This document shows positions 1,948 through 48,114 of a DNA stretch of 64,000 nucleotides, piece after piece; the stretch's first letter is position 1; each line of letters opens with the position of its first letter. The position numbers and the translations under genes were made by a program. Below the pieces are notes generated by a model, which saw only the letters and a program-made list of their open reading frames with translations, was not told the DNA's origin and ran no database searches. Source of the DNA: a virus. The stretch lies in the IMG/VR virus record IMGVR_UViG_3300042691_048368, positions 1 to 64,000 of that record; one strand, given 5' to 3'.

Positions 1948-3411
1948 ATGAAGATAACTAGATTTCAAAACTGGAGCAAAATAAACGAGGAAGCATCACC
2001 TAGACTTCCAAAAAACGTTGATTATTGGAAAAAAAGAGGGAAAATCGGGAAGGATGTAGCTCTTTACACCCATGATGATATGGATGGTATATTCAGTGCT
2101 ATAGAAGTAAAAAAATATTTACTCAATGCTGGATTCAAAATTGTAAAATACGGTATATTGAACTACTCAGAAGGTTGGAAATATACATCATTAGATCCCA
2201 AACTAATAAATGTCGTTGTAGATTTTGCAAATATGCCTGGTGATGAAAGGGATGAAATGATCGATTTTTATCTTGACCATCATGGTGTCTTCAGTGAAGA
2301 GGAGATAAAAAAATACATGAAATCTCCTGTTCAAAAAAAGAAAACAGGATCTGCCTATGAGGCTATCTGTCAATCACTTGGTGTGCCTCAAGACTCTTTG
2401 ACTGTTTCAGTGATAGACATGATTGATTCTGCTAAATATCAACACTACGGAGTTTCTTGGCAAAGACTACTCGATTTCAATCTCTCAGATATAAAGAAAT
2501 CAGACAAAGCAAGACTTGAGTTTGCGGCAGCTTTCAATCAATTTTTGAAAAGATCTGATACTAAAACAATAATAGGTGTAATTGATAACTGTAATGACGC
2601 ATCTATCTTTGCTATCTATAATGCTATGAAAACTCTTTATCCAGAACATAATGTTGGTAGATATGGAGATCCAAAACAATTCATTGATGATTCATCTTGG
2701 AGATTAGGTGAGATGGGTAGAAGAGTAAGAGGTAGAGGTGAAAAGAAAGTTTATGACACACAAGAAGATTTCCTATCAGCTTTTCAAAGAAATGGTTTAA
2801 TACAACTTGATGGATATCAAATAATAGGTGATTTAGCATTTATTCCAACTGGCACGTGGGCAAATGCATTGAGAGCTAGATCAATCATAGAAAAAGAACT
2901 TTCAGAAGGTAAAATATCGAAAGAGCCGAAATTTATTCTTCTACAATATGGAGGCACACTGCAAGTTTGTTCTTATAAACCAATGGATGAATATGGTGAT
3001 GATTTACCAAAACTAAAATCAGGAGAGGCCGTGACAGATTTGGGAGCTTATATGACTAAATTATTGAAAAATTTTCAAGAACATTTAGGTTACCACAATC
3101 CTGACACATCCTTGGGCCAAGATGAGATTACGGTTTCCGGCGGACATGGAGGCATAGGATCAATTTCGAATATCTTCGGTGAATGTGACAAGGAACCATA
3201 TGTTGGTCAAAGATTTGTAGATATGTTCAAGAATAAAATAATAACAGATTTATCTGGTGTTTCTTTCAATCTTAACATAAAATGGTCCGAACCAAAAGAA
3301 TTTAAGAGTAAGGATCCAGAAATGGACAACAAAGTTATTAGTGCTGAGGATGTAACGAAAATTGGACGTAGCGGTAAGATACTAAGATTTGATGGTTTGA
3401 AAGAAGATTAA
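1948..3411 (+). CDS. DHH/DHHA1 phosphoesterase with N-terminal capsid-tag-like sequence
   Basis: The protein has 487 aa. Residues 41-47 (THDDMDG), 90-94 (VVDFA) and 109-113 (LDHHG) are motifs I-III of the DHH superfamily, whose aspartates and histidines bind two metal ions. Near residues 398-403 a GGHGGIG loop matches the glycine-rich substrate loop of DHHA1 domains. Known family members are RecJ, nanoRNase/pAp phosphatases and GdpP-type cyclic-dinucleotide phosphodiesterases; which activity applies here cannot be told. The first 15 residues (MKITRFQNWSKINEE) do not belong to the enzyme fold and resemble the tag at the start of the core-like protein at 25736, with an INE|E site like the T4 gp21 protease consensus. 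The gene is convergent with the amidoligase (stops adjacent). Enzyme class is well supported; packaging into the virion is inference. Confidence 0.88.
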   Translation: MKITRFQNWSKINEEASPRLPKNVDYWKKRGKIGKDVALYTHDDMDGIFSAIEVKKYLLNAGFKIVKYGILNYSEGWKYTSLDPKLINVVVDFANMPGDERDEMIDFYLDHHGVFSEEEIKKYMKSPVQKKKTGSAYEAICQSLGVPQDSLTVSVIDMIDSAKYQHYGVSWQRLLDFNLSDIKKSDKARLEFAAAFNQFLKRSDTKTIIGVIDNCNDASIFAIYNAMKTLYPEHNVGRYGDPKQFIDDSSWRLGEMGRRVRGRGEKKVYDTQEDFLSAFQRNGLIQLDGYQIIGDLAFIPTGTWANALRARSIIEKELSEGKISKEPKFILLQYGGTLQVCSYKPMDEYGDDLPKLKSGEAVTDLGAYMTKLLKNFQEHLGYHNPDTSLGQDEITVSGGHGGIGSISNIFGECDKEPYVGQRFVDMFKNKIITDLSGVSFNLNIKWSEPKEFKSKDPEMDNKVISAEDVTKIGRSGKILRFDGLKED

Positions 3412-5211: not shown

Positions 5212-6093
5212 ATGATAATCAAATCGGAAATAATCCAAAATAATTTAGATAAATTAGAGCAAGCAAAGAAAGATTTTTCACTTTTGAATGATTATGCATC
5301 GACTGATGACAATTCGATTCTGAGGGGTCTGTGGGAAGAAGGACGTGCTTATGGATTCATATCCTATATGAACTTCATTGATTTCATCAGACACACCAAA
5401 AAACTCAATCAAGAGGTTTTTTATAAGAATAAAATAAAAATACCAAACTTCAAAGAAGTCTTGATTGCAAATGCACCAGATCCTACTGTAAAAAAGATTT
5501 TGAAATCAAAGGGTAAAGTTTCTTTTACAAAGTTCATAAATTCTACAAAATGGGATCTTTATTCGGGCAATCGTAGAAGAAGAGGTGGTGTAAGATATAG
5601 TGATAATTTTGTCGCATCAGCTGCTATTATTGCTAACTTTTGTATTCAAAATGAAATTGAAGTAGAAGATTATTCTAGAATTTCTGATTATTATAGAACT
5701 AACCTATCGGATTTAGATCCTAGTTTGAAAAAGGAACTAGAACTCACAAAGAATATGATTGACTATATGGTCGAAAGTTTGTCTGAATCTAATTACGACT
5801 TCAGAAGATTGAATGTTGAACATCTAAGTAAATTTATAACCGAAGAATTAAAAAAGAAGTTAGTTTCGATTGAAAAAGGTGAGTCGGTAAAGTTGATAGA
5901 AGATACTGATTACTATGGCGCCTTGACACTAGGAAAAGTCTATGAAGTTGTGGACAAAGAAATTTCTTCGGGAAGACTACAAGTAATTATCAAAAATGAT
6001 CTTGATATATCAAGATCATATCCATATAGATTATTTGAGACTGTAAGTAATCTGAGAAATTCAGTCCTAGATGATCTTTTATATGATAGTTAA
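5212..6093 (+). CDS. Hypothetical protein, 293 aa
   Basis: A complete frame stands alone on the plus strand, with a TGTATATTTTTG region just upstream. The protein is mixed alpha/beta and charged. It has a basic patch around residues 121-128 (GNRRRRGGVR) and a C-terminal segment of about 70 residues (VKLIEDTDYYGALTLGKVYEVV...) that looks like a small SH3-like or KOW-like barrel. It contains no transmembrane segment. The 3' end overlaps the convergent minus-strand gene by 15 bp. A nucleic-acid contact is possible from the arginine cluster, but no family is recognised. Confidence 0.65.
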   Translation: MIIKSEIIQNNLDKLEQAKKDFSLLNDYASTDDNSILRGLWEEGRAYGFISYMNFIDFIRHTKKLNQEVFYKNKIKIPNFKEVLIANAPDPTVKKILKSKGKVSFTKFINSTKWDLYSGNRRRRGGVRYSDNFVASAAIIANFCIQNEIEVEDYSRISDYYRTNLSDLDPSLKKELELTKNMIDYMVESLSESNYDFRRLNVEHLSKFITEELKKKLVSIEKGESVKLIEDTDYYGALTLGKVYEVVDKEISSGRLQVIIKNDLDISRSYPYRLFETVSNLRNSVLDDLLYDS

Positions 6094-7790: not shown

Positions 7791-8921
7791 TTATTCGATA
7801 TTGAAGTGACTCCTAAGTAGTTCATCTGCTGTATCTTTCGACTTAGCAATATACTTAGAACTTCCACCAGCTCTTATTATGCCAAGAGATCCCATCATTT
7901 TGAAAGCTGAAACCAAATCCTTATTTAAAAAAACAAGACCATTTACTTTACATATCTCTTGGATGGTTTTCATGCTTGGTAACTTATCATTTATTTTAGT
8001 GTCTTTGTTATAAAGTATATTTAAGAGTTGATTATAATTATACCATTTCTGGTAATTCTCATCTTTTTCTATTTTTTCTTTAAAATCACTGTAGGACCTA
8101 TATTTATAATACTCATTAAAATAAACACCGAAAAGAATTACAAGTTCAATTATGGTCGAAATCATAACAAAAAAGAATGAGTTATCTTTATTTTCTGTCT
8201 TTTTTTCATCACCTTTCAATTCTTCTGATTTCTTAAAAGATACAATTTTTCTTTCAGTCCTTTGTTGTATAGTATCAATTTCGGATTTCAATGTATTTTT
8301 TTCAATATTTAGGTCTTTTATTTGATTTCTAAGATCTTTTATTCTAGTTTTTCCTTGTCTAGTCAAGTCTGCTGAATTTTGCAATTCGGTTTGTTCTTGA
8401 TCTTTATCATCAATCTTTTTATCCAACGATTCTATTTTTGATTTCAAAGTGGAAACTTCAGTCTTTTCGATTGTTCTCAAACTATCTTCGAAAGATTTAA
8501 CATTACTTTCAACTTTAGATTCAATCTCTTTAGATTTCGTAGAGAACTCTTGAGCTCCTTTTATAGAAGAATAAAATGATATGGAAACAATCACCAAGCT
8601 AACTATCATCAGTGGTAATACGTCACTTTTAAATACGGTCTTGTATTTAATCTGTTGTAAAGAAAACTTATCAAATATTTCTCTTTTGAGTAACTCAAGA
8701 CCACTCAATAAAATTATCGATGATATAGAAACTAAAATTGGATTATCAATAATAGCGCCCGTTAATATCTTGGAAACTAAAAAGTAAGCAAGAAAGATAG
8801 ATGATATATGCCCAAAAATAGACAAAAAGAACATTACTTTGTTTATGTTCGCAAAACTTTTACTGAAGTCTTGTTCCTTTATAGACTCCTCCAACTTTTT
8901 AAATTCACTTAATTTCATCAT
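7791..8921 (-). CDS. Membrane protein with long coiled coil and C-terminal helical domain
   Basis: The protein has 376 aa with tandem ATG starts at 8921 and 8918. Hydrophobic segments lie at about residues 29-52, 61-78, 101-120 and 250-270, and a charged coiled coil of roughly 110 residues connects the third and fourth. The C-terminal 60-80 residues look soluble and winged-helix-like (SMKTIQEICKVNGLVFLNKDLVSAF). The first residues (MKLSEFKKLEES) resemble the tag found on other proteins here, but a membrane protein is an unlikely cargo. It overlaps the preceding 110-aa gene by 17 bp and lies in a minus-strand unit with an AAA ATPase. Its role is unknown; a membrane-anchored sensor or spacer is possible. 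Confidence 0.65.
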   Translation of the reverse strand: MMKLSEFKKLEESIKEQDFSKSFANINKVMFFLSIFGHISSIFLAYFLVSKILTGAIIDNPILVSISSIILLSGLELLKREIFDKFSLQQIKYKTVFKSDVLPLMIVSLVIVSISFYSSIKGAQEFSTKSKEIESKVESNVKSFEDSLRTIEKTEVSTLKSKIESLDKKIDDKDQEQTELQNSADLTRQGKTRIKDLRNQIKDLNIEKNTLKSEIDTIQQRTERKIVSFKKSEELKGDEKKTENKDNSFFFVMISTIIELVILFGVYFNEYYKYRSYSDFKEKIEKDENYQKWYNYNQLLNILYNKDTKINDKLPSMKTIQEICKVNGLVFLNKDLVSAFKMMGSLGIIRAGGSSKYIAKSKDTADELLRSHFNIE

Positions 8922-15206: not shown

Positions 15207-15524
15207 TTACATCCTCTGGCTCCAAATAGATTTTGGTTTATTAACTTGAACGCCCGTTTTCCAAAGTCCAAGTCTTAATTTTGAGTCATTATTAAACTCA
15301 CCTCTCAATCTTCCACACTGTTTATCCGTCAAATAAATGTGAAACATCTCCGCATACATATTATCATCAACTGGATTCAAAAAGTATTCGCTATTCGATT
15401 CAAATTCATCCAAATCTTGTATTATGCCAGATCCCCACCCATGGGTTTTTTTTAATATTTTGATTATTCTATCATAATCATATGAATCTTCAAACATTTC
15501 AAAGAATTTCTTGATCCTCATCAT
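15207..15524 (-). CDS. Tagged small protein, 105 aa
   Basis: Tandem ATGs (15524, 15521) begin MMRIKKFFEMFEDSYDY, which fits the Phe-x-x-Phe-Glu tag seen on other proteins of this window. The body is a compact acidic alpha/beta domain without a recognised motif; it contains one Cys-Gly-Arg segment (DKQCGRLRGEF). The start overlaps the upstream 479-aa gene by 26 bp, suggesting translational coupling of two tagged proteins. Packaging in the virion is inferred from the tag only. Confidence 0.6.
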   Translation of the reverse strand: MMRIKKFFEMFEDSYDYDRIIKILKKTHGWGSGIIQDLDEFESNSEYFLNPVDDNMYAEMFHIYLTDKQCGRLRGEFNNDSKLRLGLWKTGVQVNKPKSIWSQRM

Positions 15525-16938
15525 CGGTGTTCGATCTCATTTTGTTCATAATAATCATATTGAAATTGTCAACTGGTTCGAAGTTATATTTAGCATTCAA
15601 TTTGCCCGACATTTCGCCACCACTGAATTTTATATCAATATTACAATTAATAAGAGGTTCATCGTCAAGTTCCATTCTCAGTTTTATTGAAAAGTCATTT
15701 TTTTCTTCTTCTTCATTATCAACAATCAATCTTACATGATAATCAAATTTGATATTTATATCATCATAGAAATCTCTGAAAAACTTTCTTGATGGTACTT
15801 GGTGAAAATCCTTTCCTTTCTTTCCTAAAAAATAAGTTGGTCTTTCTAAACAACCTAATTTTTCCACGAAAGTTTTAATCAATTTCATTTTTACATTGCC
15901 ATCCGCTTTTTTGAATCCATCATCTAATTTTGTAATTTCATCTTTACTATTCGTTAATAAGGAATCTGTAATTAAATGTTCCAATATTTTTGAATTTAGT
16001 AGATAAATTTTAACCTCCATCCACTCATTGAATACTTTTTCAACGTCCAAAAAGCATTGATCTTTATTTTTCCATATTTCACTCATCAAGTCTGAAAATT
16101 TCAAGATATTCTTATCAAATTGTTTGATGTGTTCACCAATATTTTTGAATCTCATATCTCTGTGTTTCAAGTCAAAATATTCAAAATAACCTAGTGTGTC
16201 AATTCTTTCTGGTTCTATAAACTTTTCTATGTGAATTTGAATTGGTTTATTAGCATTTTCATAAATTATTTTAACCCAACTTTGTGTTAATTTATCCCAC
16301 TTTTTGATATACTCCTCATTGTACAAATTTTCTATACCCTTTCCGATAAAATCATCGGCAAATGTATTGAATGATGAAGATTTGGATGTGGATAAAGTTT
16401 TATTTACAAAAATACTGAACTGAGCACCTGATTTCAATTCAATAACTAAATCTTCCCCGTGGTCTTTGTCTTTATTCGGACCAATCCAATAAACTTTTGA
16501 TATAAGGTCTTCTGACAATTTTTCTTCGACCAAAATTTTATCGATAATATTACGAGCTGTGATTCTCGCATCGACCAATTTATTCCAATCTTGTTCGATG
16601 TCAAATTTAACTTCTTCAAAATATCCATTTATTTTTGAATGTTCGGTATCTTCAACACATACGTTATTTTCAAACTTACCCAATTGTAATCTATTTTTCG
16701 CTATTAATAGATTTTTTAAATCCGTAAGAAAAACATTTGAATTTTCTGTATACCTACCTTTCAAACCTCGGTCAAGAAGATTATCTAGAAATTCATTATT
16801 CAATAATATCATACCTACACAAATTTCTGTTATTAAATTTTTTGGCTTATAAATAGTCTTTTCTAAATCATTCTGTGCTTGAACTTTGAATTGGTTTTGT
16901 GCTTCCAAAAAAAGTTCGTAACCTCTTAACCATCTCAT
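15499..16938 (-). CDS. Tagged protein with possible PD-(D/E)xK nuclease-like core, 479 aa
   Basis: The protein begins MRWLRGYELFLEAQNQF, a tag-like start with an LE|A site. Residues 163-190 read EDLVIELK, then SGAQFSIFVNK and a Ser-rich stretch ending in FNTF. The Asp...Glu-x-Lys spacing (D163, E167, K169) followed by a strand and Ser-rich loop recalls the catalytic strand of PD-(D/E)xK restriction-type nucleases, but I see no clear remaining motif. The last 100 residues are beta-rich and acidic. The gene shares a symmetrical promoter region with the divergent tagged gene at 16994. A nuclease function is tentative; the reading frame is certain. Confidence 0.7.
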   Translation of the reverse strand: MRWLRGYELFLEAQNQFKVQAQNDLEKTIYKPKNLITEICVGMILLNNEFLDNLLDRGLKGRYTENSNVFLTDLKNLLIAKNRLQLGKFENNVCVEDTEHSKINGYFEEVKFDIEQDWNKLVDARITARNIIDKILVEEKLSEDLISKVYWIGPNKDKDHGEDLVIELKSGAQFSIFVNKTLSTSKSSSFNTFADDFIGKGIENLYNEEYIKKWDKLTQSWVKIIYENANKPIQIHIEKFIEPERIDTLGYFEYFDLKHRDMRFKNIGEHIKQFDKNILKFSDLMSEIWKNKDQCFLDVEKVFNEWMEVKIYLLNSKILEHLITDSLLTNSKDEITKLDDGFKKADGNVKMKLIKTFVEKLGCLERPTYFLGKKGKDFHQVPSRKFFRDFYDDINIKFDYHVRLIVDNEEEEKNDFSIKLRMELDDEPLINCNIDIKFSGGEMSGKLNAKYNFEPVDNFNMIIMNKMRSNTDDEDQEIL

Positions 16939-16993: not shown

Positions 16994-17626
16994 ATGAGGT
17001 TCATCAAAGATTTCAAAAGGTACCAAGAATCATTAAGAATAGAATTTGGTTATATAGATATAGATATAAATGAGTCATTGGGCTTATTATACGATAACGT
17101 TTTAAAATCCATAGGGGCGGAAGAAATTGATATGTTCGATACATTCCATCTACCCAAAGATGATTTTGCAGATAAAATGAATTTGGATCTATTGACTGCA
17201 AGTACAGAATTTATAAACTCATTATCAAGTATAGGTTTAAAAAATTCGAATGTTACAAATAGTGATGATTTTGAAACTTTTTTCAAAAGACCTTGTAGAT
17301 TCATGATGATTTATCGTATAGAGGCAAATGAACTTGAAAACCCCTCATATATTATATTCCAACCTTGGAGTGATTTGTTAAATAAGTGGGAAGATTGCAA
17401 ATTGTATAAAGTAAATGGAGATATAAAGAATTTTTATGATAAACTCTCATCCAAAGTCATTGAGGTTGAGGATGGTGGTGAAAAATTCATATATCAAACT
17501 TCAAACGGCAACGAATGGAATTTACAAAATTTGGACAAAGCAAATGACACGTATTTGAAATATTTCAGAACTGAAGATTTCGAGAAATTACTCAAAGATA
17601 GAAAAGTTTCTATCAACATAATTTAA
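16994..17626 (+). CDS. Tagged protein of unknown function, 210 aa
   Basis: The start MRFIKDFKRYQESLR fits the tag pattern (hydrophobic, Phe, Tyr, QE|S). The remainder is an acidic alpha/beta protein of about 190 residues with no membrane segment or known motif. It is divergent from the tagged 479-aa gene across a palindromic promoter and ends convergent with the J-domain gene, overlapping its stop by a few bases. Virion packaging is inferred from the tag. Confidence 0.65.
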   Translation: MRFIKDFKRYQESLRIEFGYIDIDINESLGLLYDNVLKSIGAEEIDMFDTFHLPKDDFADKMNLDLLTASTEFINSLSSIGLKNSNVTNSDDFETFFKRPCRFMMIYRIEANELENPSYIIFQPWSDLLNKWEDCKLYKVNGDIKNFYDKLSSKVIEVEDGGEKFIYQTSNGNEWNLQNLDKANDTYLKYFRTEDFEKLLKDRKVSINII

Positions 17627-20215: not shown

Positions 20216-21931
20216 ATGAATTTAACAGAGATCTCCTTTGCTAAAGTAAAAACCGAAATAGAGAATTTCTTAAAAACTGAATACTCCAAATCGAGTATTG
20301 TATTTTCGAATGCTAGTCCATTTGGGCAAGTATTATCTGTACTCGAAAATCTTTATCAACTTTCCATCCTTTACATGAAGAATTCAATTAAGCAATTTGA
20401 CATGTTGGACCCATTAGCTGTAAATGCAAGAGCTATAAGAAATGCAGCTATCTTTGCTGGTCACATACCAGCTAGAGCTGTGAGTGCGACAGGTACTTTG
20501 AAATTCAGTATCAAAACCTCAGTCGATATAGCTAAGGAGGTACCTGGTTCGAGAGTCACGTTCCTAAACCGTATTAGTATGAAAAATAAGACTAATGGTT
20601 TGGAGTATGCAATAAATCTTGGTACAGATCAAGTTACTTATCAAGTTAGTTCATCTACTCAGTTTTTCGTATCGATAATACAAGGAAAATGGGAAAGTAA
20701 GAATTTCACTTCTTCAGGTGAACAAAACCAGACATTCCAAGTTAAAATAAGAGGTAAGAAAGAAGTTGAAAATTTTAACTATGAAGTTTTAGTAAATGGT
20801 GACTATTGGACAATAAAAAAACATTTGTATGACTTATTACCAGATGAGAATGCCTGTGTAATCAGAACTGGTTTCGAGGGTGGTATCGATGTGATTTTCG
20901 GCAATTCTGGTTTTGGCGCTATACCACAAATCGGATCATTAATCGAAATAAAATATTTGGTTAGTGATGGGTCAAATGGTTCCATATTTAGAAGAACACA
21001 AAATGATTGGACTTTTATTGATCAACCTCTAGATGGTAATGGTAATTCATTGGATGTTTCGAATATTTTCGACATAGCTATTTATAATGATATAAATTTT
21101 GGATCTGATTCTGAAAATTTACAGTTTACAAAAAATGTTCTACCTATAGTAAGTAACAATTTTGTTTTAGGTTTACCTCAACAATATGCTTATCAAATAA
21201 AGAAACTTGGTGTATTTTCACACGTAAATGCTTATGAAAGGTTTGGCACAATATATGTTGTTGCAACTCCGAATATAAAATTATTTAAAAGTCAAAATTC
21301 CAATTACTTCGAAATTAATATTTCAGCTTTTGATTTAGATGATTATGAGAAATCAAAAATTGACAGATACATAAGAACCGGTGGAAATATTCAACTTACT
21401 AGAAAGTATAAAATTACTTCACCAGTGCTTTCATACTACGTGATGAACGTATTTATAATAACTTATTCGGATGCGAAGGATGACAATGTAGACTCTCAAA
21501 TATATGAAAAAATTTCAGAGTATTTCCTTAATCTAAATCGTATAGATAGAATTCCAAAGAGTGATATGGTCCAAACATTATCATCTATAGGTGATATACA
21601 TTCGGTCGATGTGTCTTTCATATCAAGAAAAAATGAAGAATATCATAAAAATGCTATGATGGAAGATTCAAATCGTAGAAATACTTATGCTTCGAAAGAA
21701 GCGAATCAGATATCCAGACCTCTACCAACATATAACCCAAATACCACATTAGGTTTGGATAGCATATTAGGAGATATATTATTTGAACCAAGTGAAATTC
21801 CGATAATTCGTGGAGGTTGGTTTGATAGAAGTAGTTTTTATTATTCAGATGATTTGAAAGATAATGGATTGAAATCTGTTAACATTATAAGGAAGGGTAC
21901 TGTAGACTCTTCTAGAAGACAAAAATTATAA
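20216..21931 (+). CDS. Baseplate wedge protein, T4 gp6-like / baseplate J type
   Basis: The protein has 571 aa. The N-terminal helical part (LSVLENLYQLSILYMKNSI, then NARAIRNAAIFAGHIPARA) and the middle segment (RTGFEGGIDVIFGNSGFGAIP followed by LIEIKYLVSDG) match the gpJ/gp6 baseplate wedge family, in which a FGDGxxGxxP-type turn precedes a strand ending in L-x-x-G. gp6 dimers form the wedge ring that holds the tail tube hub. The C-terminus has a TYNPNTTLG segment like that of large-phage homologues. It is the first gene of a plus-strand cluster with the 84-aa gene 4 bp downstream. Family assignment is firm; the exact homologue name is inferred. Confidence 0.85.
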   Translation: MNLTEISFAKVKTEIENFLKTEYSKSSIVFSNASPFGQVLSVLENLYQLSILYMKNSIKQFDMLDPLAVNARAIRNAAIFAGHIPARAVSATGTLKFSIKTSVDIAKEVPGSRVTFLNRISMKNKTNGLEYAINLGTDQVTYQVSSSTQFFVSIIQGKWESKNFTSSGEQNQTFQVKIRGKKEVENFNYEVLVNGDYWTIKKHLYDLLPDENACVIRTGFEGGIDVIFGNSGFGAIPQIGSLIEIKYLVSDGSNGSIFRRTQNDWTFIDQPLDGNGNSLDVSNIFDIAIYNDINFGSDSENLQFTKNVLPIVSNNFVLGLPQQYAYQIKKLGVFSHVNAYERFGTIYVVATPNIKLFKSQNSNYFEINISAFDLDDYEKSKIDRYIRTGGNIQLTRKYKITSPVLSYYVMNVFIITYSDAKDDNVDSQIYEKISEYFLNLNRIDRIPKSDMVQTLSSIGDIHSVDVSFISRKNEEYHKNAMMEDSNRRNTYASKEANQISRPLPTYNPNTTLGLDSILGDILFEPSEIPIIRGGWFDRSSFYYSDDLKDNGLKSVNIIRKGTVDSSRRQKL

Positions 21932-25735: not shown

Positions 25736-26776
25736 ATGAAAGTCGTAAAATATTCGGAATATTCAAAAATTAATGAGGAATTTGTTTTGAGTGCTATAAA
25801 AGGTGCGCTTGGTAAATTGTTTGGATTTTTCGCAAATGCTTTCAAAGATTTGGGTGCTGATTTTAAATCTATGTTCAAAGAGGATGACCCTTCCACTATA
25901 AAAGACATAGTAATGAAAAATGTTGACCAAGCTGTTGATGGTGCTCAAAAGGAAATCACCAATCTAAAAAGTGATGGTGATGTATTGGGTATAGTGGATA
26001 ATATGGTGACTCAATTAGTTGAACTTGGTAATAACATTACTAAAGATGTTGAGGGTGCTTTAGGTAAGGAAAAATCAAAACCTGTTGAGGAAATCTCAAA
26101 AGCGTTACTACTTGGAAATAAAGAAGTGGATTGGGTTGGTATAGTTGGTGCATTGGATCCAGCGGCAGGAATTTTGAAAAAAGACATAAATTTTGCATAC
26201 TCGAAGAAGAAATTCGTTGAGTCAGTAAACAAGGGTAAAGATTTGAATCAGAAAAAAACCTTGGCTTCAAAGTTTCTTGATGATTTTCAAAAAACAATAA
26301 GGGCTGAATTAGAAAAAGCAGTGACCGATGAAGAGATAAAAACTCTTTATGATAAAATGAAGGGTGGAGACGCTGGTACTGATTTGGAATTGAAGGAAGG
26401 TGATATGGTTGTGTATCTCCTCAAAGGAAAGAAAAAAGAGGAATTTGATGAAAAGAAAAAACCTGAAGAACAAAAAGATGTAGTTGGTGTAAAGAAAATC
26501 GAAAAAATAGATGGTGATAAAATAACATTTCTAGATAAAGACGGTAAACCTACAATTTTAAAAACAAAAGCTGAAATACTAAAGAAGGTTGAAGTTGAAA
26601 TGGGCCAAAACGCAAAGAAGGTTGCAGACTCACTTGGAAAAATCAAACAAGACGAGGAAAAAATGGGTAAAGTTGCTACTTTCGCTGAATTTATTCAAGA
26701 TGATAAAAATAAAGACAAACTAGCTGAAATAGAAAAAATACTTTCTGGTGGTGAACAGCCAGCCGCACAAGCATAA
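25736..26776 (+). CDS. Core/internal head-type protein with capsid tag, 346 aa
   Basis: The start MKVVKYSEYSKINEEF contains the same SKINEE site as the DHH protein and matches the proteolysed T4-type capsid-targeting sequence. The body is Lys/Glu/Ala-rich and helical (ALGKLFGFFANAFKDLGADF, then long charged helices), with a small beta domain around residues 220-275 (GDMVVYLLKGKK...VVGVKKIEKIDGDKITFL) like an SH3/KOW unit. A TFAEFIQDDKN segment lies near the C-terminus. The composition suits an internal or scaffold core protein. The 240-aa gene follows with TAATG overlap. The role in the head is inferred. Confidence 0.65.
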   Translation: MKVVKYSEYSKINEEFVLSAIKGALGKLFGFFANAFKDLGADFKSMFKEDDPSTIKDIVMKNVDQAVDGAQKEITNLKSDGDVLGIVDNMVTQLVELGNNITKDVEGALGKEKSKPVEEISKALLLGNKEVDWVGIVGALDPAAGILKKDINFAYSKKKFVESVNKGKDLNQKKTLASKFLDDFQKTIRAELEKAVTDEEIKTLYDKMKGGDAGTDLELKEGDMVVYLLKGKKKEEFDEKKKPEEQKDVVGVKKIEKIDGDKITFLDKDGKPTILKTKAEILKKVEVEMGQNAKKVADSLGKIKQDEEKMGKVATFAEFIQDDKNKDKLAEIEKILSGGEQPAAQA

Positions 26777-28466: not shown

Positions 28467-29684
28467 TCAAAAAGGTGTTAAATCTTCTTCAACTTGCTCG
28501 TCATCCAACGGGATGTAAAACATATTCGGTGAATTTATGTGTTCTTGTTGCGACTTTTTCTTACGTAATGATTCTAATAAAATATTATTGTTGAGGTCAT
28601 TGTCTTTGAAGATCCAATCATTCAGTGTAGGATCATACTGAGCATCATCCCTAAGAATGAAAGTGTCAAAGACATCAGAGTGTATACATAAATTCGAGTG
28701 AACGCGCATATCGAGGTAATTTAGATAAAGGGTCTCACTGAATTGGTAGTACAGTTTAGTTTTTTCACACAAAGTTAGATGATCCGAATCATAAGTAGAA
28801 CCATCGGCAGATGATAATGTCCTTATATTCGTATTAATCTGTGGTTTGTGGTTAGATATTTTACCCGACTTAAAATCTAAAAATTTGAATGTATCCATAT
28901 AAGGATAGTAATCGAATTTGAAATTATTAAGATCGAAATTTATTTCCTTATAAATTGTTTTTCCTTTGGACTCGAAAAACAAACTGTTGTTCCACTTTTG
29001 TTCTTTCTTATAAATAAACCCGTTTTCATCTGCCCATTTTTTAAAGTGGAACTGATAAGTTTCATCATCAATGGTATAAATTCTGTCCATTATCTTTTCA
29101 CCATTAATAGACCACAAGAGTGCTCGGCCAATCAACATATGATTATCTGTTAAAAGTACGAGTAAAGAAATTTTGTCTTTATTATCAGTATAAAGGCGCA
29201 GATAATCTTGACATTGATCATATTTCATGCAAGAATTACCAAGTGATCCAGACTCTGAGAGATAAGATTCATAGTGATAATAATGATAAATATTATCGCC
29301 ATTTACGACTTTGAAATTTGAATTAATTTTTGTCTGTACATTTTTAAAGAGCTGTGAGAAATTTTCTACTTCCCTTGGGTGGATGTTTCGGAAAAGTTTC
29401 GAAATGAATGCGCCGGGTTTGATGTGGAACCTTTTTGGAGAAGTCCACAAATCCTCTCCATTTTGCAAAAGATTTTCTATTCTTTCTTGAGTTAAATATG
29501 AAATCTTTGTTCTGTCTGATTGGGAAATAGAAATATAGTTGATGTGATTATCAACTAGGTTTTCTATTGAGTGTCTCTGTTTCAATAGAAGTCTAGCGAT
29601 TTCGGAATTATCCTTGATTTGTTCGAGGATGTAATCTAATTCTAATGATGTAATAATATCGGAGGTTTTTCTTGTATACGCCAT
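28467..29684 (-). CDS. Early paralogue of unknown phage family, 405 aa
   Basis: The central region (residues about 95-300) is clearly homologous to the protein encoded at 30868-32004. Shared blocks are F-x-(V/L)-V-x-G-(D/E)-x-I-x-x-YY, GxLGxSCMxYxxCQxY, GRAL(L/V)W and MDR(I/V)Y, then NxxKFxxYPxxDTxxxL and SSADGSxY / TSTDGDFY. I know this set of blocks from large-phage proteins but not its function; the conserved Cys pair (SCM...CQ) could be catalytic or metal-binding. Unlike the paralogue it has no tag at the start (MAYTRKTSD). The start is only some 6-8 bp downstream of the host-type promoter element at 29692-29699, so the transcript may be nearly leaderless. Confidence 0.7.
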   Translation of the reverse strand: MAYTRKTSDIITSLELDYILEQIKDNSEIARLLLKQRHSIENLVDNHINYISISQSDRTKISYLTQERIENLLQNGEDLWTSPKRFHIKPGAFISKLFRNIHPREVENFSQLFKNVQTKINSNFKVVNGDNIYHYYHYESYLSESGSLGNSCMKYDQCQDYLRLYTDNKDKISLLVLLTDNHMLIGRALLWSINGEKIMDRIYTIDDETYQFHFKKWADENGFIYKKEQKWNNSLFFESKGKTIYKEINFDLNNFKFDYYPYMDTFKFLDFKSGKISNHKPQINTNIRTLSSADGSTYDSDHLTLCEKTKLYYQFSETLYLNYLDMRVHSNLCIHSDVFDTFILRDDAQYDPTLNDWIFKDNDLNNNILLESLRKKKSQQEHINSPNMFYIPLDDEQVEEDLTPF

Positions 29685-29691
29685 AAGTTCA

Positions 29692-29723
29692 CAAAGGTAA
29701 AATTTTAATCTAACATATCCAAA
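29692..29723 (-). promoter_or_regulatory. Bacteroidota-type promoter (TTTG / TAnnTTTG)
   Basis: On the minus strand TTTG (29723-29720) is followed after exactly 20 bp by TACCTTTG (29699-29692). This is the -33/-7 form of Bacteroidota housekeeping promoters. The predicted start of transcription is close to the ATG of the 405-aa gene (29684). Confidence 0.65.
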
Positions 29724-30580
29724 AGTTGTGAAAGTTTATCTTCACGAATGAAGCACTGTGTGATTTGGAGAATTTTTTCAGTTTCCTTTCGAACAACATA
29801 TGAATCTTGATTGCGAAAAACATTCATATAAGCTTGAAATACCTTGAATGCATCTATGGAAAAATCATTGTACGATTCAATATTTAGTTTATCACTTGGG
29901 GTCATGAGTACATTAATTTGTGCTTTTGTAAAATCCTTGGAATGGTTCCAACGAAGGACGTTCTTTAGTGCATCAAACTTATTGTGATTTACTTTCTGGT
30001 CCTTATCAATGATAACATTACGAACTTGTGAAATCATTACTCGCTCCCCTACAAGTGATTTGATAGACTCAATTTGCTCATCAAAAGTCTCCACATCTAT
30101 ATTTTGAGCGGCAACTTCTGCTTTATCGGAAATACCTTTGATGTGTTTAGTGATAAGTGAAAAGTTTTTGATATTACTAACTAAATATGTACCATTATCA
30201 GCTTGATAAAGACCAAGATTCATACTGAGTCTACGAGACTTATCTGAAGAATTGAGTATGAAGAAAGCTTTGAAATACTTGATGCCAGCAATTTCAACTT
30301 CATCGGAGAGGAGAATGAGTTCTTGAATACCACCTCGAATGCGGAGATTTGAATAAGTAATATTGAAATTTGATTCAATATAATCGATTTTGGACTTCAT
30401 AAAAGACCGAATATCAAAAATCTCATAACGATTAGATACCAGTGTAGTGTTGATAACCCTACCGAAGTATTTGGTAACTACTTGGGATCCACTTTGACTG
30501 ATGTCAATTGCTTCGACACGACGAAAAAGGTCTGATTTGTTGTATTTTTGGTAACCGCGAGATAGTAGAAATGTTGACAT
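29705..30580 (-). CDS. Hypothetical, probably early protein, 291 aa
   Basis: This alpha/beta protein has no membrane segment and no catalytic motif I recognise (segments RGGIQELILLSDEVEIAG and YFKAFFILNSSDKSRRLSMN suggest a beta-rich core like that of small plasmid/phage DUF932-type proteins, weakly). It stands 20 bp upstream of the 405-aa gene on the minus strand and has its own host-type promoter 22-54 bp upstream of the start. The housekeeping-type promoter suggests early expression. Function unknown. Confidence 0.65.
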   Translation of the reverse strand: MSTFLLSRGYQKYNKSDLFRRVEAIDISQSGSQVVTKYFGRVINTTLVSNRYEIFDIRSFMKSKIDYIESNFNITYSNLRIRGGIQELILLSDEVEIAGIKYFKAFFILNSSDKSRRLSMNLGLYQADNGTYLVSNIKNFSLITKHIKGISDKAEVAAQNIDVETFDEQIESIKSLVGERVMISQVRNVIIDKDQKVNHNKFDALKNVLRWNHSKDFTKAQINVLMTPSDKLNIESYNDFSIDAFKVFQAYMNVFRNQDSYVVRKETEKILQITQCFIREDKLSQLLDMLD

Positions 30581-30602
30581 ATTGTATTTGATTTTGATAA
30601 TA

Positions 30603-30634
30603 CAAAGATAGTGGAAAGATTTATATAAAACAAA
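30603..30634 (-). promoter_or_regulatory. Bacteroidota-type promoter (TTTG / TAnnTTTG)
   Basis: TTTG (30634-30631) and TATCTTTG (30610-30603) are spaced by 20 bp on the minus strand, the same spacing as at 29692-29723. The gene at 30580 would have a leader of roughly 15-20 nt. Confidence 0.7.
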
Positions 30635-30845
30635 AAAAGTCTGAAATTTCTCTCAGACTTTTGGGGGTCATCAGAACATATGAGGAATAACGGTTTTTAC
30701 CTCAACCTTACCGTTCTCACAAGCATGATGTGAGATCTATTGCCAGGGTCAGACAGTCTGTGCTATTTTTAGCCCGTAAGTTTCCGAGAACTATTTTTAC
30801 ACCATTTTCTTATGACGGTGATTATATTTGGTAAATTTGATCAAG
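30635..30845 (-). ncRNA. Candidate structured noncoding RNA with terminator
   Basis: The gap of 287 bp holds no plausible gene, but it is G/C-richer than its surroundings and full of dyads. They are 30716-30734 (six-bp stem), 30689-30694 with 30710-30715 (six bp), 30762-30773 (four bp), and 30750-30760. The loop of the second hairpin (30700-30704) can pair with 30681-30685, which makes an H-type pseudoknot. The unit ends at 30635-30662 with a stem followed on the minus strand by seven T, a terminator that no minus-strand gene would need. A TATATTAATATAAA motif at 30846-30866 could start the transcript. It is not tRNA or tmRNA as far as I can see. Confidence 0.5.
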
Positions 30846-30866
30846 TTTTATATTAATATATAAATC
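30846..30866. promoter_or_regulatory. AATATATA-type promoter motif, possibly bidirectional
   Basis: The near-palindromic TTTATATTAATATATAAA sits directly before the start at 30868 and also before the ncRNA candidate on the other strand. It belongs to the recurrent phage motif class. Confidence 0.5.
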
Positions 30867-30867
30867 T

Positions 30868-32004
30868 ATGTTAAATAATTTTAATGGGTTCATTCTAGAG
30901 AAACAAGTAGTATCTTTATTATTGGAGAATGATTTAAACGCGTCACCTGAGTTTCTTGCAAGATTGAAAAAGATAAGAGATAGGAGTAAAGTAGCTCAAA
31001 TACTCTACGATTTATTCAGTGCAGAATACTATATTGTAAAAGATTTGCCTCAGAACTGGATTGATGTGACAAATGAGCCAGAAATGATTTCATTTTTATC
31101 TGATAGTAGAGCTAAAAGAACTCCGATGCAATGGGATGAAGATAGTTCAAAATATTATGATGTTTCTGGCAGAGGTCAAATAAAAGTTGGTAGGTTTGCA
31201 CAAGCTTTATTAAATGATCCAGATGTGATTGAAGATTTAGATTTATCCTTTGTTGAAAACTATATTCAAGGACTAACACCAAAAGATTTCGAAGATTTTG
31301 TAAACTTGTACAAATCTGAATTTGTAGTAGTTTCTAATGAGTTTAAATTGGTAAAGGGTGATGAAATCCCTTACTATTATGATTTTATGAACTATGCATA
31401 TCCCGACAAGGGACACTTGGGTGCATCTTGTATGAGGTATACACATTGTCAAAGATACTTCAGTATCTACAAAAAAAACCCAGAGGTGTGTCAATTATTG
31501 GCGTATGTAAATCAAGAAAATAAAGTTTTGGGTAGGGCACTTGTCTGGAAACTAGATAAGAAAGTTGATGGGTGTCCAGCAGAATATTTTATGGACAGAG
31601 TTTATTGTGCAAATGATAGTGATATGATAAAGTTCAAAAATTACGCTAAAGAGAAGGGTTGGGTTATGAAAAACAAAAATGCATCTGATGCGTATGAGGC
31701 TTTATTCTTCAACTACAATGATAAAGTCATTTTATCACACATTAGTGTTCAATTGAAAGAATCAAATTTTGCATTTTACCCTTTCATAGACACTCTGTCT
31801 TTATTGAACGAAACAAACGGTAAGTTACATAATGTTTTAGGGAAAAATTGTATTGAACTTACTTCGACAGATGGAGATTTTTACACGCCCGATACGAACA
31901 AAAGTAGGAGGGAAAATCTGAAAGAAATGCTAAACGAAATACTCAATGATAATAATTATTTGGGTTATAGAGACCTTATAGAAACTGCATTATCAAATCT
32001 TTAA
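30868..32004 (+). CDS. Late tagged paralogue of unknown phage family, 378 aa
   Basis: The second member of the family at 28467: blocks HLGASCMRYTHCQRYF, VLGRALVWKL, FMDRVYCAND, NFAFYPFIDTLS and TSTDGDFYTPD correspond one-to-one to blocks of the 405-aa protein. Its start differs: MLNNFNGFILEKQVV carries the Phe-x-x-Phe-I-L-E|K tag-like pattern found on presumed cargo proteins. The gene is preceded directly by the AATATATAAA motif, not a host-type promoter, so late expression is expected. It is convergent with the UvsY-like gene (stop codons adjacent). I infer that this copy may enter the host with the virion while the other is made from the genome; this is untested. Confidence 0.7.
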   Translation: MLNNFNGFILEKQVVSLLLENDLNASPEFLARLKKIRDRSKVAQILYDLFSAEYYIVKDLPQNWIDVTNEPEMISFLSDSRAKRTPMQWDEDSSKYYDVSGRGQIKVGRFAQALLNDPDVIEDLDLSFVENYIQGLTPKDFEDFVNLYKSEFVVVSNEFKLVKGDEIPYYYDFMNYAYPDKGHLGASCMRYTHCQRYFSIYKKNPEVCQLLAYVNQENKVLGRALVWKLDKKVDGCPAEYFMDRVYCANDSDMIKFKNYAKEKGWVMKNKNASDAYEALFFNYNDKVILSHISVQLKESNFAFYPFIDTLSLLNETNGKLHNVLGKNCIELTSTDGDFYTPDTNKSRRENLKEMLNEILNDNNYLGYRDLIETALSNL

Positions 32005-32496
32005 TTAACCACCTAAATAATTCATAAGTTCAATTATATTTTTAATCGTATAACCTAAACTTTCTAAATTTTTTGAACAGTTTCTTAAGAATTCGATGTA
32101 ATTGTCTATAAGTAGGATTGTTCTATCATTTTCCGCTAGATGAGCATCTATCAAAGTAGATTTTTCACCAGCATTTGTTTTCAGTCCTATTCCAAGAGCG
32201 TAAAATACAAACTTATCTTGTCTGATCTTTTTAACTTTTACTTCCTCTTTTGACCTTTTATTTAAAAAAAAGGAAATTTGTTCATTTATCATTTGTCGAT
32301 AACTCAAAGCTATAGATTGGCATTCAAAAACTTTCGATGAATTATCTATAGTCAATCTATTTTTGATGACCTCAAAAAGTGGTTCTAAATTCTTATTCCA
32401 TTCCTCACGTTTTTGGTTGAAAAACTCTTCTAACTTATCATTGGTATCTTTTGTCTTATTGATCCTTTCAAGTTCTTCTGGTGGGTAAAGGTTCAT
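32005..32496 (-). CDS. UvsY-like recombination mediator, 163 aa
   Basis: The C-terminal 40 residues (YIEFLRNCSKNLESLGYTIK then NIIELMNYLGG) align by pattern with the end of T4 UvsY (short helix, Cys, then a G-F/Y-x-I-K-x-I segment). The N-terminal part is helical and charged. UvsY loads the UvsX recombinase on single-stranded DNA covered by gp32. Together with the gp47-like protein at 45619 it indicates T4-type recombination-dependent replication. The similarity is confined to the C-terminus, so confidence is moderate. It is 26 residues longer than T4 UvsY. Confidence 0.6.
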   Translation of the reverse strand: MNLYPPEELERINKTKDTNDKLEEFFNQKREEWNKNLEPLFEVIKNRLTIDNSSKVFECQSIALSYRQMINEQISFFLNKRSKEEVKVKKIRQDKFVFYALGIGLKTNAGEKSTLIDAHLAENDRTILLIDNYIEFLRNCSKNLESLGYTIKNIIELMNYLGG

Positions 32497-45618: not shown

Positions 45619-46743
45619 ATGTCAAAAATTCTAATTATTGGTGATACCCACTTAGGTCTTGGTTACCCGAATTCGATTGATAAATGGTTTAAAGTACACA
45701 GGGAATATTTTGAAGAATTTTTAATTCCTTTAGTTCGGAAAGAAATGACCGAAGATGATATTATAATCCACTGTGGAGATTTATTTGACAATCGGTCAGT
45801 GGTTCCGATTAATATACTCAATTACGCACAAGATCTCCTCGAAAAACTATCTTCTATATGTCCGGTGCATATACTAATTGGTAATCATGATTTGTACACT
45901 AAAGCCTCTAATGATGTGAATACTGTCAAATTATATAAGTATATACCAAACATTACCGTTTACGAAAAGCCTACCAAAATTGATTTTTGTGGAAAGTCAA
46001 TATTGATGTTACCTTGGGTTGAGAAAAAACAAGACCAAATTGACATACTAAAAAGATTTTCTGGTTGTGATTATCTTTTCTGTCATTCGGATTTGAACGG
46101 TGCAAAAATGCATTTGACCTCTGTTGCACATAAAAATCAAGATAAAATAGATGTGGAAGATTTTTCAGGTTACAAAAATGTATATTCTGGTCATATACAC
46201 ATCTTGCAAGTCACAAAAAATTTCACTTTTGTCGGTAATAATTTTGAAATGGATCGAAATGACATTAACAATCAAAAGGGAATTTTTATCTTAGATACTT
46301 TGGTTGACGAGGAGAGATTCATTCCTAATAATATTTCACCGAGATACAAAAAGATATACATAAGAACTCAAGAGGATATTGATCAATTAGAAAACACTTC
46401 GACAAAAGATTATATTGATCTTTTCATATCAAATTCATTGTTGATAAACAATAGGAAATTAAGAAGAAAGTTAGAGTTAATGTTGGAATCCGGTAACTTT
46501 GCTTCAGTTGACTACATCGATGATTTAGTTTTGGAAAAAAATGAAGAAACTAAATCTGTGATTGAAGAAATTACTGAAGAAGAATTAAACAATGGTGTGG
46601 TTCCATCTATTCAATTAGAATATACTGATTTAATTAGACAATACATTAATACTCAGAAATATGAAAGTGAGAAGATCAAAAATGGCGTCTTACAAGAGTT
46701 TAATGAAATTGCTAGAATATATGATGAGGGTTATTTAGAATAG
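45619..46743 (+). CDS. gp47/SbcD-like nuclease subunit, 374 aa
   Basis: I use ATG 45619; a GTG one codon earlier is in frame. Motifs of the Mre11/SbcD/T4 gp47 family are complete: GDTHLG (8-13), HCGDLFDNR (51-59), GNHDLY, FCHSDLNG and SGHIHILQ. gp47 with gp46 resects DNA ends for recombination and degrades host DNA. A gp46 (SbcC-like) gene is not in this window. The C-terminal 130 residues are charged and helical, the likely partner-binding part. The end overlaps a convergent tagged gene by 13 bp. Confidence 0.85.
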   Translation: MSKILIIGDTHLGLGYPNSIDKWFKVHREYFEEFLIPLVRKEMTEDDIIIHCGDLFDNRSVVPINILNYAQDLLEKLSSICPVHILIGNHDLYTKASNDVNTVKLYKYIPNITVYEKPTKIDFCGKSILMLPWVEKKQDQIDILKRFSGCDYLFCHSDLNGAKMHLTSVAHKNQDKIDVEDFSGYKNVYSGHIHILQVTKNFTFVGNNFEMDRNDINNQKGIFILDTLVDEERFIPNNISPRYKKIYIRTQEDIDQLENTSTKDYIDLFISNSLLINNRKLRRKLELMLESGNFASVDYIDDLVLEKNEETKSVIEEITEEELNNGVVPSIQLEYTDLIRQYINTQKYESEKIKNGVLQEFNEIARIYDEGYLE

Positions 46744-47033
46744 TTTGGTTTTCTTCCACTACCTTTAGATCCGGTACTCTCTGCTTTTCTTTTCCTAGCA
46801 ACCGCTGCTTTCTTTTGTTTCGCCGACATCTTAGCGGCAACCCTTACTTTTCTGCATTTGGGATATCCACCTTTACTTGTGTCAGACCTTCCGCATGGTG
46901 GATGAGACCCATCTTTATTTGTCTTGGAAATATCAACCCATTTTTCTTTGAACCATTTATCGAGTCCACCATGAGAACCCTTATATGATTTTTCCTCATG
47001 GATGAAATCTTCAAATAATAGTAGATGTTCCAT
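46731..47033 (-). CDS. Tagged small basic protein, DUF5872-like, 100 aa
   Basis: The start MEHLLLFEDFIHEEKSY is a clear tag with IHE|E site. The remainder, LDKWFKEKWVDIS, HPPCGRS, GGYPKCRKVRVA and then a Lys/Arg-rich tail (KQKKAAVARKRKAE), matches the small Cys-containing unit I know as DUF5872 from large phages and giant viruses. Two Cys may form a metal site or disulfide. It overlaps its upstream neighbour by one base. The basic tail could bind DNA in the head. Family recognition from memory; function unknown. Confidence 0.72.
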   Translation of the reverse strand: MEHLLLFEDFIHEEKSYKGSHGGLDKWFKEKWVDISKTNKDGSHPPCGRSDTSKGGYPKCRKVRVAAKMSAKQKKAAVARKRKAESTGSKGSGRKPNYSK

Positions 47034-47251
47034 TATCTTTTCTTAGACTTTTTAACTTTTGACTTTCTCCAAGTGCCACCTTTTTTCTTATATCTTTTTG
47101 CAGCAGCTCCATTAGCATAAGCTGATGGATAAACGTCATAGGTATTTTTTGCCCAAGCTTTACAGGAAGCCCATAAAGATGGGTTATTTGGCACGTTTTT
47201 CTCAACTACAAGTGATTCTTTAAAATCTTCGAAAGGTAATAAATGATTCAT
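47033..47251 (-). CDS. Tagged small basic protein with CKAWAK/YPSAYANG domain, 72 aa
   Basis: The start MNHLLPFEDFKESLVVEK is nearly the same as the tag of the next gene. The core NNPSLWASCKAWAKNTYDVY then PSAYANGAAAKRYKKKGG is a compact domain known to me from phage and giant-virus virion proteins, with conserved Trp, Cys and Tyr. A basic end follows (WRKSKVKKSKKR). It shares a base with the downstream gene. Packaging is inferred from the tag, DNA contact from the charge. Confidence 0.72.
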   Translation of the reverse strand: MNHLLPFEDFKESLVVEKNVPNNPSLWASCKAWAKNTYDVYPSAYANGAAAKRYKKKGGTWRKSKVKKSKKR

Positions 47252-47535: not shown

Positions 47536-48114
47536 TCACCAGAAACCTGGATATGTTTTTCCTCCCCAAAGATTTGCATATCTATTAGCCCTACAAGCCC
47601 AGTAACCTGGTTTGGTCTTATCCTTTTTCAAATGGCACTGATGTCTTGCAGCAAAAGCTTTTCTAGCTTTAGGATCAGAAACCTTTGCACTCAGACCACC
47701 TTTAGCATCACCAAAGTTTACTACTTTAACTTTTTTTGTCTTGGGATTAATCACATAAACTTTGTATTTTTTTGGACCCGAGCTTCTCATAGGTTTGCCT
47801 ATTGGAACTTTTTTTCCATGATATTCGGCTTCGTTCAAATCTTCGACTTCTTCTAATGGTAAGTCCAAAGGTACCATTTCACCTTCGTATTCTGCAAATT
47901 TACCAATATCAGTTGTTTCAAATAAAATTTTATCTATTCCCGATAATTCTACTTTATTAGTATCAAACAAAATTCTAGCTTCCTTTATTAGATCATAGAA
48001 CGAATTGGAACCAGGTCTGAACACATTTTCCAAAACGGGAAGGTTGTTATCGACATGATATTTTAGATTCTCACTGATTGGATGAAAATTATCGAATAGA
48101 TTAATATATTTCAT
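47536..48114 (-). CDS. Tagged protein with basic Cys domain, 192 aa
   Basis: The start MKYINLFDNFHPISENLK is tag-like with an ISE|N site. The C-terminal 75 residues (KYKVYVINPKTKKVKVV..., DPKARKAFAARHQCH, KTKPGYWACRANRYANLW) form a basic unit with two Cys that I know from other large-phage proteins. The middle is acidic and flexible. It is the first gene of the cassette 48114-46731 and is divergent from the giant baseplate gene. The tag and basic domain fit a packaged DNA-binding cargo. Confidence 0.72.
   Translation of the reverse strand: MKYINLFDNFHPISENLKYHVDNNLPVLENVFRPGSNSFYDLIKEARILFDTNKVELSGIDKILFETTDIGKFAEYEGEMVPLDLPLEEVEDLNEAEYHGKKVPIGKPMRSSGPKKYKVYVINPKTKKVKVVNFGDAKGGLSAKVSDPKARKAFAARHQCHLKKDKTKPGYWACRANRYANLWGGKTYPGFW

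Follow-up and report, generated by a model that had tools for sequence, protein, structure and literature searches.

The genes for two related proteins, one of 405 residues (A405) and one of 378 residues (B378), lie close together in a window of 64,000 nucleotides of viral DNA (positions 1 to 64,000 of the IMG/VR virus record IMGVR_UViG_3300042691_048368, which comprises 94,997 bases in full). They belong to a protein family in which the pattern of N-terminal tags and of late or early promoters is best read as an arsenal of tagged proteins plus one early copy, instead of a simple pair. We consider it probable that this family with a GNAT-like fold modifies the host and is supplied by two routes, with the particle and by early expression, in a manner resembling Alt, ModA, and ModB of phage T4.

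The A405 gene is an open reading frame (ORF) at 28467-29684 on the minus strand that encodes an untagged protein, and the B378 gene is an ORF at 30868-32004 on the plus strand that encodes a tagged one. The two proteins share 28% identity across 330 residues (BLASTP, 122 bits, E = 1e-35), and the ordered blocks that a preliminary description of the sequence had listed for both are present in the same order; A405 and B378 are true paralogues. That description had taken them to be a pair, which is correct for their relationship but not for their number, as related megaphages each have between 7 and 15 such proteins.

Searches with tblastn identified homologues in metagenomic phages of 634-735 kb and in the Cellulophaga phages phi38:1, phi40:1, and Calle_1-3, along with a weak homologue in Thermus phage TSP4. 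Each 634-735 kb Bacteroidetes megaphage encodes 7 to 15 family copies, several of which form tandem clusters. The number of distinct family ORFs is 7 in LR756502, 8 in LR745206, 15 in LR756501, 14 in LR756504, 6 in a 465 kb IMG/VR contig, 3 in a 106 kb contig, and 2 in the 95 kb record of the window. An initial alignment of the whole family (A1) proved too diverse for scanning sequence collections, and sub-family alignments took its place; after further scans the set comprised 174 ORFs in some 220 loci. The family looks essentially viral, since a sub-family query run against 84,980 bacterial and archaeal genomes matched two short contigs from metagenome-assembled genomes and nothing else. Pfam and PHROGs scans of A405 and B378 gave no significant match, a Pfam scan of 68 members gave scattered weak matches with no acetyltransferase among the 25 families listed, and a sequence-profile search of the PDB gave no match below an E value of 0.1. 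Two family matches in LR756502.1 (L073 and L044, at about 496 kb and 566 kb) contain in-frame TAA stops.

The tag-like start of the 378-residue protein noted in the preliminary description was borne out. B378 begins with MLNNFNGFILEK (30868-30903, plus strand), and it and its orthologues carry the pattern YxxF[IL]xE, which matches the capsid-targeting sequence of T4. A second phi-x-E site, LLLEN, occupies residues 17-21 of B378. In the AlphaFold models the predicted local distance difference test score (pLDDT) is about 50 for B378 residues 1-20 and 86-95 for the start of A405. The first ten residues of the T4 protein IPIII are enough for packaging, with positions 4 and 7 serving in targeting and positions 8 and 10 in processing (PMC9026906), and the tag of this family has the same spacing. 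Typical N-termini among many other members are MIKKYLDFIKES, MISKYLDFITES, and MKYLEFINEA. The exact pattern [YF]xx[FY][ILVMF]xE occurs within the first 40 residues of 60 of 136 non-redundant members, compared with a mean of 1.2 and a maximum of 6 in shuffled sequences, and of the 59 members in which the motif lies close to the start, 42 have another phi-x-E site within some 20 residues. With a looser rule, 84 of 165 members were scored as tagged versus 53 of 665 other ORFs from the same loci (odds ratio 12, p = 3e-33).

The genes expected of a T4-type head accompany the tag. A gp23-type capsid gene was present in every one of the seven huge-phage records tested, and six of these also gave weak matches (E = 6e-8 to 1e-4) to a gp21-like (S77) prohead protease. 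Neither was found in the Cellulophaga and Thermus phage records tested, and the homologues in those phages are untagged. Roughly 45 residues from their start, the huge-phage capsid proteins (L231-L237) share a conserved site of the HxINEN type, which reads HQMNEN and HQIHEN in two of them, a predicted point of cleavage by the prohead protease that would follow the same phi-x-E logic. Capsid-targeting-like N-termini were also observed in other genes of the window, whose products are possible head cargo: 1948-3411 (+) with MKITRFQNWSKINEE, 15499-16938 (-) with MRWLRGYELFLEA, 16994-17626 (+) with MRFIKDFKRYQES, 25736-26776 (+) with MKVVKYSEYSKINEE, 46731-47033 (-) with MEHLLLFEDFIHEE, 47033-47251 (-) with MNHLLPFEDFKES, and 47536-48114 (-) with MKYINLFDNFHPISE.

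Both promoters proposed for the pair in the preliminary description, a host-type TTTG/TAnnTTTG element ahead of the 405-residue gene and a phage motif ahead of the 378-residue gene, were found. Upstream of A405 the arrangement is TTTG-N20-TACCTTTG, with TTTG at 29720-29723 and the second box, a host-type -7 box at 29692-29699 on the minus strand, beginning 15 nucleotides and ending 8 nucleotides before the ATG. The consensus TAnnTTTG is the -7 box of flavobacterial sigma-A promoters (PMC9723704). Upstream of B378 lies TTAATATATA, which begins 15 nucleotides before the ATG and contains the late-promoter-like motif AATATATA (30855-30862, plus strand), itself beginning 13 nucleotides before the ATG. 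As a caveat, two TAnnTTTG strings also precede the B378 gene, at -45 and -36; no such string was found ahead of the orthologous gene in G001 and G002 (by script) or in G003 (by eye). Among the 51 window genes of at least 100 residues, 23 have [AT]ATATATA no more than 60 nucleotides from the gene (mean 3.1 and maximum 9 in shuffled sequence), including a baseplate wedge gene at 20216-21931. TAnnTTTG together with an upstream TTG precedes only four window genes, those at 5212 (+), 7791 (-), 28467 (-), and 29705 (-). We judge the two promoter classes not to be products of chance because of the shuffle control for the first motif and the rarity of the second. The AT motif is a putative late promoter, a role suggested by its distribution in the window, where it precedes the baseplate wedge gene, and by its presence ahead of tagged genes. 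By the criterion of TAnnTTTG with an upstream TTG, the genes at 5212-6093 (+) and 7791-8921 (-) are candidate early genes.

Promoter class was then compared with tag state across the non-redundant set, counting motifs within 80 nucleotides of the start. Among uncurated sequences (71 tagged and 65 untagged), the late motif AATATATA precedes 41 of 71 tagged versus 9 of 65 untagged starts (p = 1e-7), and TAnnTTTG precedes 4 of 71 versus 17 of 65 (p = 0.0015). When ambiguous N-termini were set aside by eye, a curation resting on the author's judgement, the counts became 41 of 66 tagged versus 2 of 51 untagged for the late motif and 4 of 66 versus 17 of 51 for TAnnTTTG. The late motif is mostly located at -13/-12 or near -30. 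In the family tree, the A405 clade has 15 rows (support 95, two long distant rows included), all of them untagged; in the 13 members examined, the host box was found in 9-10 and the late motif in none. The host box lies no more than 31 nucleotides from the start in L001, L002, L038, L043, L044, L173, L174, L175, and L176, with L045 a near-match only. The B378 orthologues in G001, G002, and G003 (support 100) are all tagged, as are those nearby in W01, W02, and L147 (W01 judged by eye), and the late motif is present ahead of the B378-type copies in G001-G003, W01, and W02. Across several huge phages, the orthologues of A405 and of B378 each retain the tag state and promoter class of their copy.

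Both proteins were modeled with AlphaFold, a check suggested for the conserved domain in the preliminary description, and both are predicted to adopt a GNAT-like fold without the coenzyme A (CoA)-binding loop. The models are confident (pLDDT 90.4 for B378 and 93.2 for A405), and nearly all of the top PDB matches from Foldseek and VIA are GNATs or putative GNATs. The region concerned spans residues of about 119-287 in A405 (28824-29330, minus strand; VIA-align Z up to 8.8) and of about 154-329 in B378 (31327-31854, plus strand). B378 matches 1wk4 (Foldseek E = 2.8e-3; best VIA Z 6.6), and A405 matches human GCN5 (Foldseek E = 6.8e-3, probability 0.99) and VipF (VIA Z 8.8, 3.3 Å over 108 residues). 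In hhalign the family segment KIxGRALLW...FMDRIYT...YAKENG aligns with the GNAT strands and helix, and the family lacks residues exactly at the CoA pyrophosphate loop; because that loop is absent, we describe the predicted fold as GNAT-like but do not class the family among the GNAT enzymes. No ADP-ribosyltransferase fold was among the structural matches listed. PcfJ (PF14284), raised by weak BFVD matches and a similar-looking 'HCV' block, found no support in hhalign (probability 0.26%), and the phages gave no match to PF14284. Across 137 non-redundant core sequences, S186, C187, R222, Y241, P298, and D301 are invariant, whereas Y171, W226, D238, and R239 are almost so; this numbering covers aligned columns alone and departs by as much as 7 from the full-length numbering, in which the invariant residues are S187, C188, R223, Y246, P305, and D308 and the nearly invariant ones Y171, W227, D243, and R244. 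The invariance of Cys, Arg, and Asp suggests a putative active site. The C-termini vary, since CxxC-type clusters are present there in 45 of 169 members, about a quarter.

The preferred model is the expansion of a GNAT-fold family among T4-like Bacteroidetes megaphages. Its tagged members would be made late and be brought into the prohead core by a T4-type capsid-targeting sequence, YxxF[IL]xE; a gp21-like protease would remove the tag by cutting after Glu, and the trimmed proteins would enter the next host together with the DNA. In the newly infected cell, the untagged A405 member would be transcribed at once from its host-type sigma-A promoter, so that a host-modifying activity, predicted to be acyl- or other group transfer, would be provided by the particle first and by early expression afterwards, much as T4 packages Alt and makes ModA and ModB early. 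The analysis itself shows the paralogy, the tag, the two promoter classes and their conservation with the tag state in orthologues, the capsid and protease genes, and a predicted fold; that the proteins are packaged and ejected, when they are made, what they target, and by what chemistry they act is inferred. The earlier proposal of one early, untagged copy and one late copy tagged for the virion has withstood these comparative tests (tag state of orthologues, promoter class, the capsid-targeting match, and the gp21-like protease). Its companion claim that the same activity is supplied twice is unproven at 28% identity, even though both proteins are predicted to have the same fold. Extending the model further, we tentatively suggest, with distinctly less confidence than in two-route supply itself, a new GNAT-fold enzyme class that has lost the CoA loop and may use the invariant Ser-Cys(-Met) with the conserved Arg/Asp for another group transfer. 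In megaphages it would have multiplied to up to 15 paralogues that differ in their C-terminal parts; most would be packaged and injected as an arsenal for host modification, and one would remain as an early-expressed copy.

Several observations weigh against two-route supply of a GNAT-fold activity. The protease match exceeds the Pfam cut-off in one record only. The best Foldseek E values (3e-3 and 7e-3) and Z scores (6.6 and 8.8) are moderate, and common arrangements score likewise; the profile-profile match between the family and GNATs is weak (hhalign probability 2%, E = 0.024; reversed control 0.38). The CoA pyrophosphate loop [QR]xxGx[GA] after strand 4 was found in 1 of 137 members, a stray match, compared with 20 of 29 GNAT controls, in which it was counted anywhere in the sequence; acetyl transfer is therefore not secure. 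The association of tag with promoter is inseparable from shared ancestry, the three independent pairs on supported branches having no power. In several untagged members neither promoter motif is present, and the late motif is missing from some of the tagged ones; some of these genes may be operonic.

Alternatives were considered for the promoters, for the fate of the tagged proteins, and for their target. Upstream regions are AT-rich and the motifs short, so both motifs could have arisen by chance, with the tag a generic N-terminus and the early/late difference incidental; the shuffle controls and the conservation in orthologues make this highly improbable. It is also improbable, though less so, that the tagged members are structural or core/scaffold parts of the prohead that are cleaved and then retained or lost, and are not injected effectors. 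T4 core proteins are likewise cleaved by gp21, with most fragments removed at maturation (PMC9026906), yet in the tagged proteins there is a conserved globular domain of enzyme-like character, in which Cys, Arg, and Asp are invariant. This domain is shared with untagged members, which by the same logic cannot be core proteins, and copy number and C-terminal parts differ between phages.

The main rival to host takeover concerns the target, and has packaging and two-route supply in common with the preferred model: each packaged copy may counter a different restriction or abortive system, as T4 IPI does, and the diversity would then reflect an arms race. The internal proteins of T-even phages have only the capsid-targeting sequence in common and form a diverse set directed against modification-dependent restriction enzymes (PMC3012670), and the copies found here are many, diverge from one another, and lie partly in clusters. 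That every member strictly conserves the putative active site speaks for a single chemistry and against many binding inhibitors, although an enzymatic form of anti-defence would be compatible with it. We regard anti-defence as a serious but rather unlikely alternative to the host-modifying role.

The surroundings of the pair were also examined. Just upstream of A405 lies a conserved neighbor, a 291-residue gene (29705-30580, minus strand) with a host-type promoter whose box TATCTTTG (30603-30610, minus strand) is at -30. In other huge phages this gene adjoins the A405 orthologue, with 45-82% identity in tblastn comparisons to their loci, so the two look like a conserved early unit. Between A405 and B378 a conserved non-coding element (30635-30830) includes a terminator-like site on the minus strand. 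It has 90% mean column identity in three relatives and a hairpin with paired changes (TCTCAC/GTGAGA versus TCCTAC/GTAGGA), and it recurs in two other huge-phage contigs, one copy lying near the 405-residue orthologue. Its folding energy is not unusual, and Rfam gave no match in the locus, this element included; it is a candidate small RNA or control site. A gene for a UvsY-like recombination mediator (32005-32496, minus strand; PHROG E = 1.5e-7) adjoins the tagged B378 gene. No DNA methylase (PF00145) was found in the 95 kb record and no tRNAs within the window.

What the largest phages inject apart from DNA is poorly known. From tag and promoter combined, one can predict for each of their genes whether its product may ride in the head, and a large unnamed family of enzyme-like proteins emerges as a possible main cargo. 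The homologue gp037 of the isolated Cellulophaga phage phi38:1 makes the function of the family testable; the main text of the published infection proteomics of that phage does not name gp037.

The two-route strategy is already known from T4, while the protein family and its amplification appear new, no description of the family or its packaging having been found in the open-access papers searched. In T4 the ADP-ribosyltransferase Alt is packaged and injected, and its paralogues ModA and ModB are not (PMC5512222; PMC9026906). The likeness is that one paralogue carries a cleaved propeptide into the particle and the others do not, packaging here being proposed by analogy; the differences are a GNAT-like fold in place of an ADP-ribosyltransferase and 7-15 paralogues in each megaphage in place of three. 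T4 IPI-IPIII resemble the tagged members in the type of N-terminal tag, its spacing, and the presence of a gp21-type protease in the phage, but are small unrelated proteins, unlike this large family with one conserved domain. GNATs are predicted widely among jumbo phages (PMC7824862). Rac of phiKMV-like phages is predicted to be a Gcn5-related acetyltransferase and is reported to act on host RNA polymerase, with cleavage of the alpha subunit, in host takeover (PMC7552054); our family is likened to it by predicted fold and proposed role, not by sequence, and lacks the CoA loop. The virion and non-virion RNA polymerases of phiKZ-type phages likewise place one activity in the particle and again in an expressed paralogue (PMC7824862, PMC13282480), although the proteins are different. 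The T4 Alt/Mod logic of virion plus early supply would thereby extend to another fold and to the phages of another bacterial phylum.

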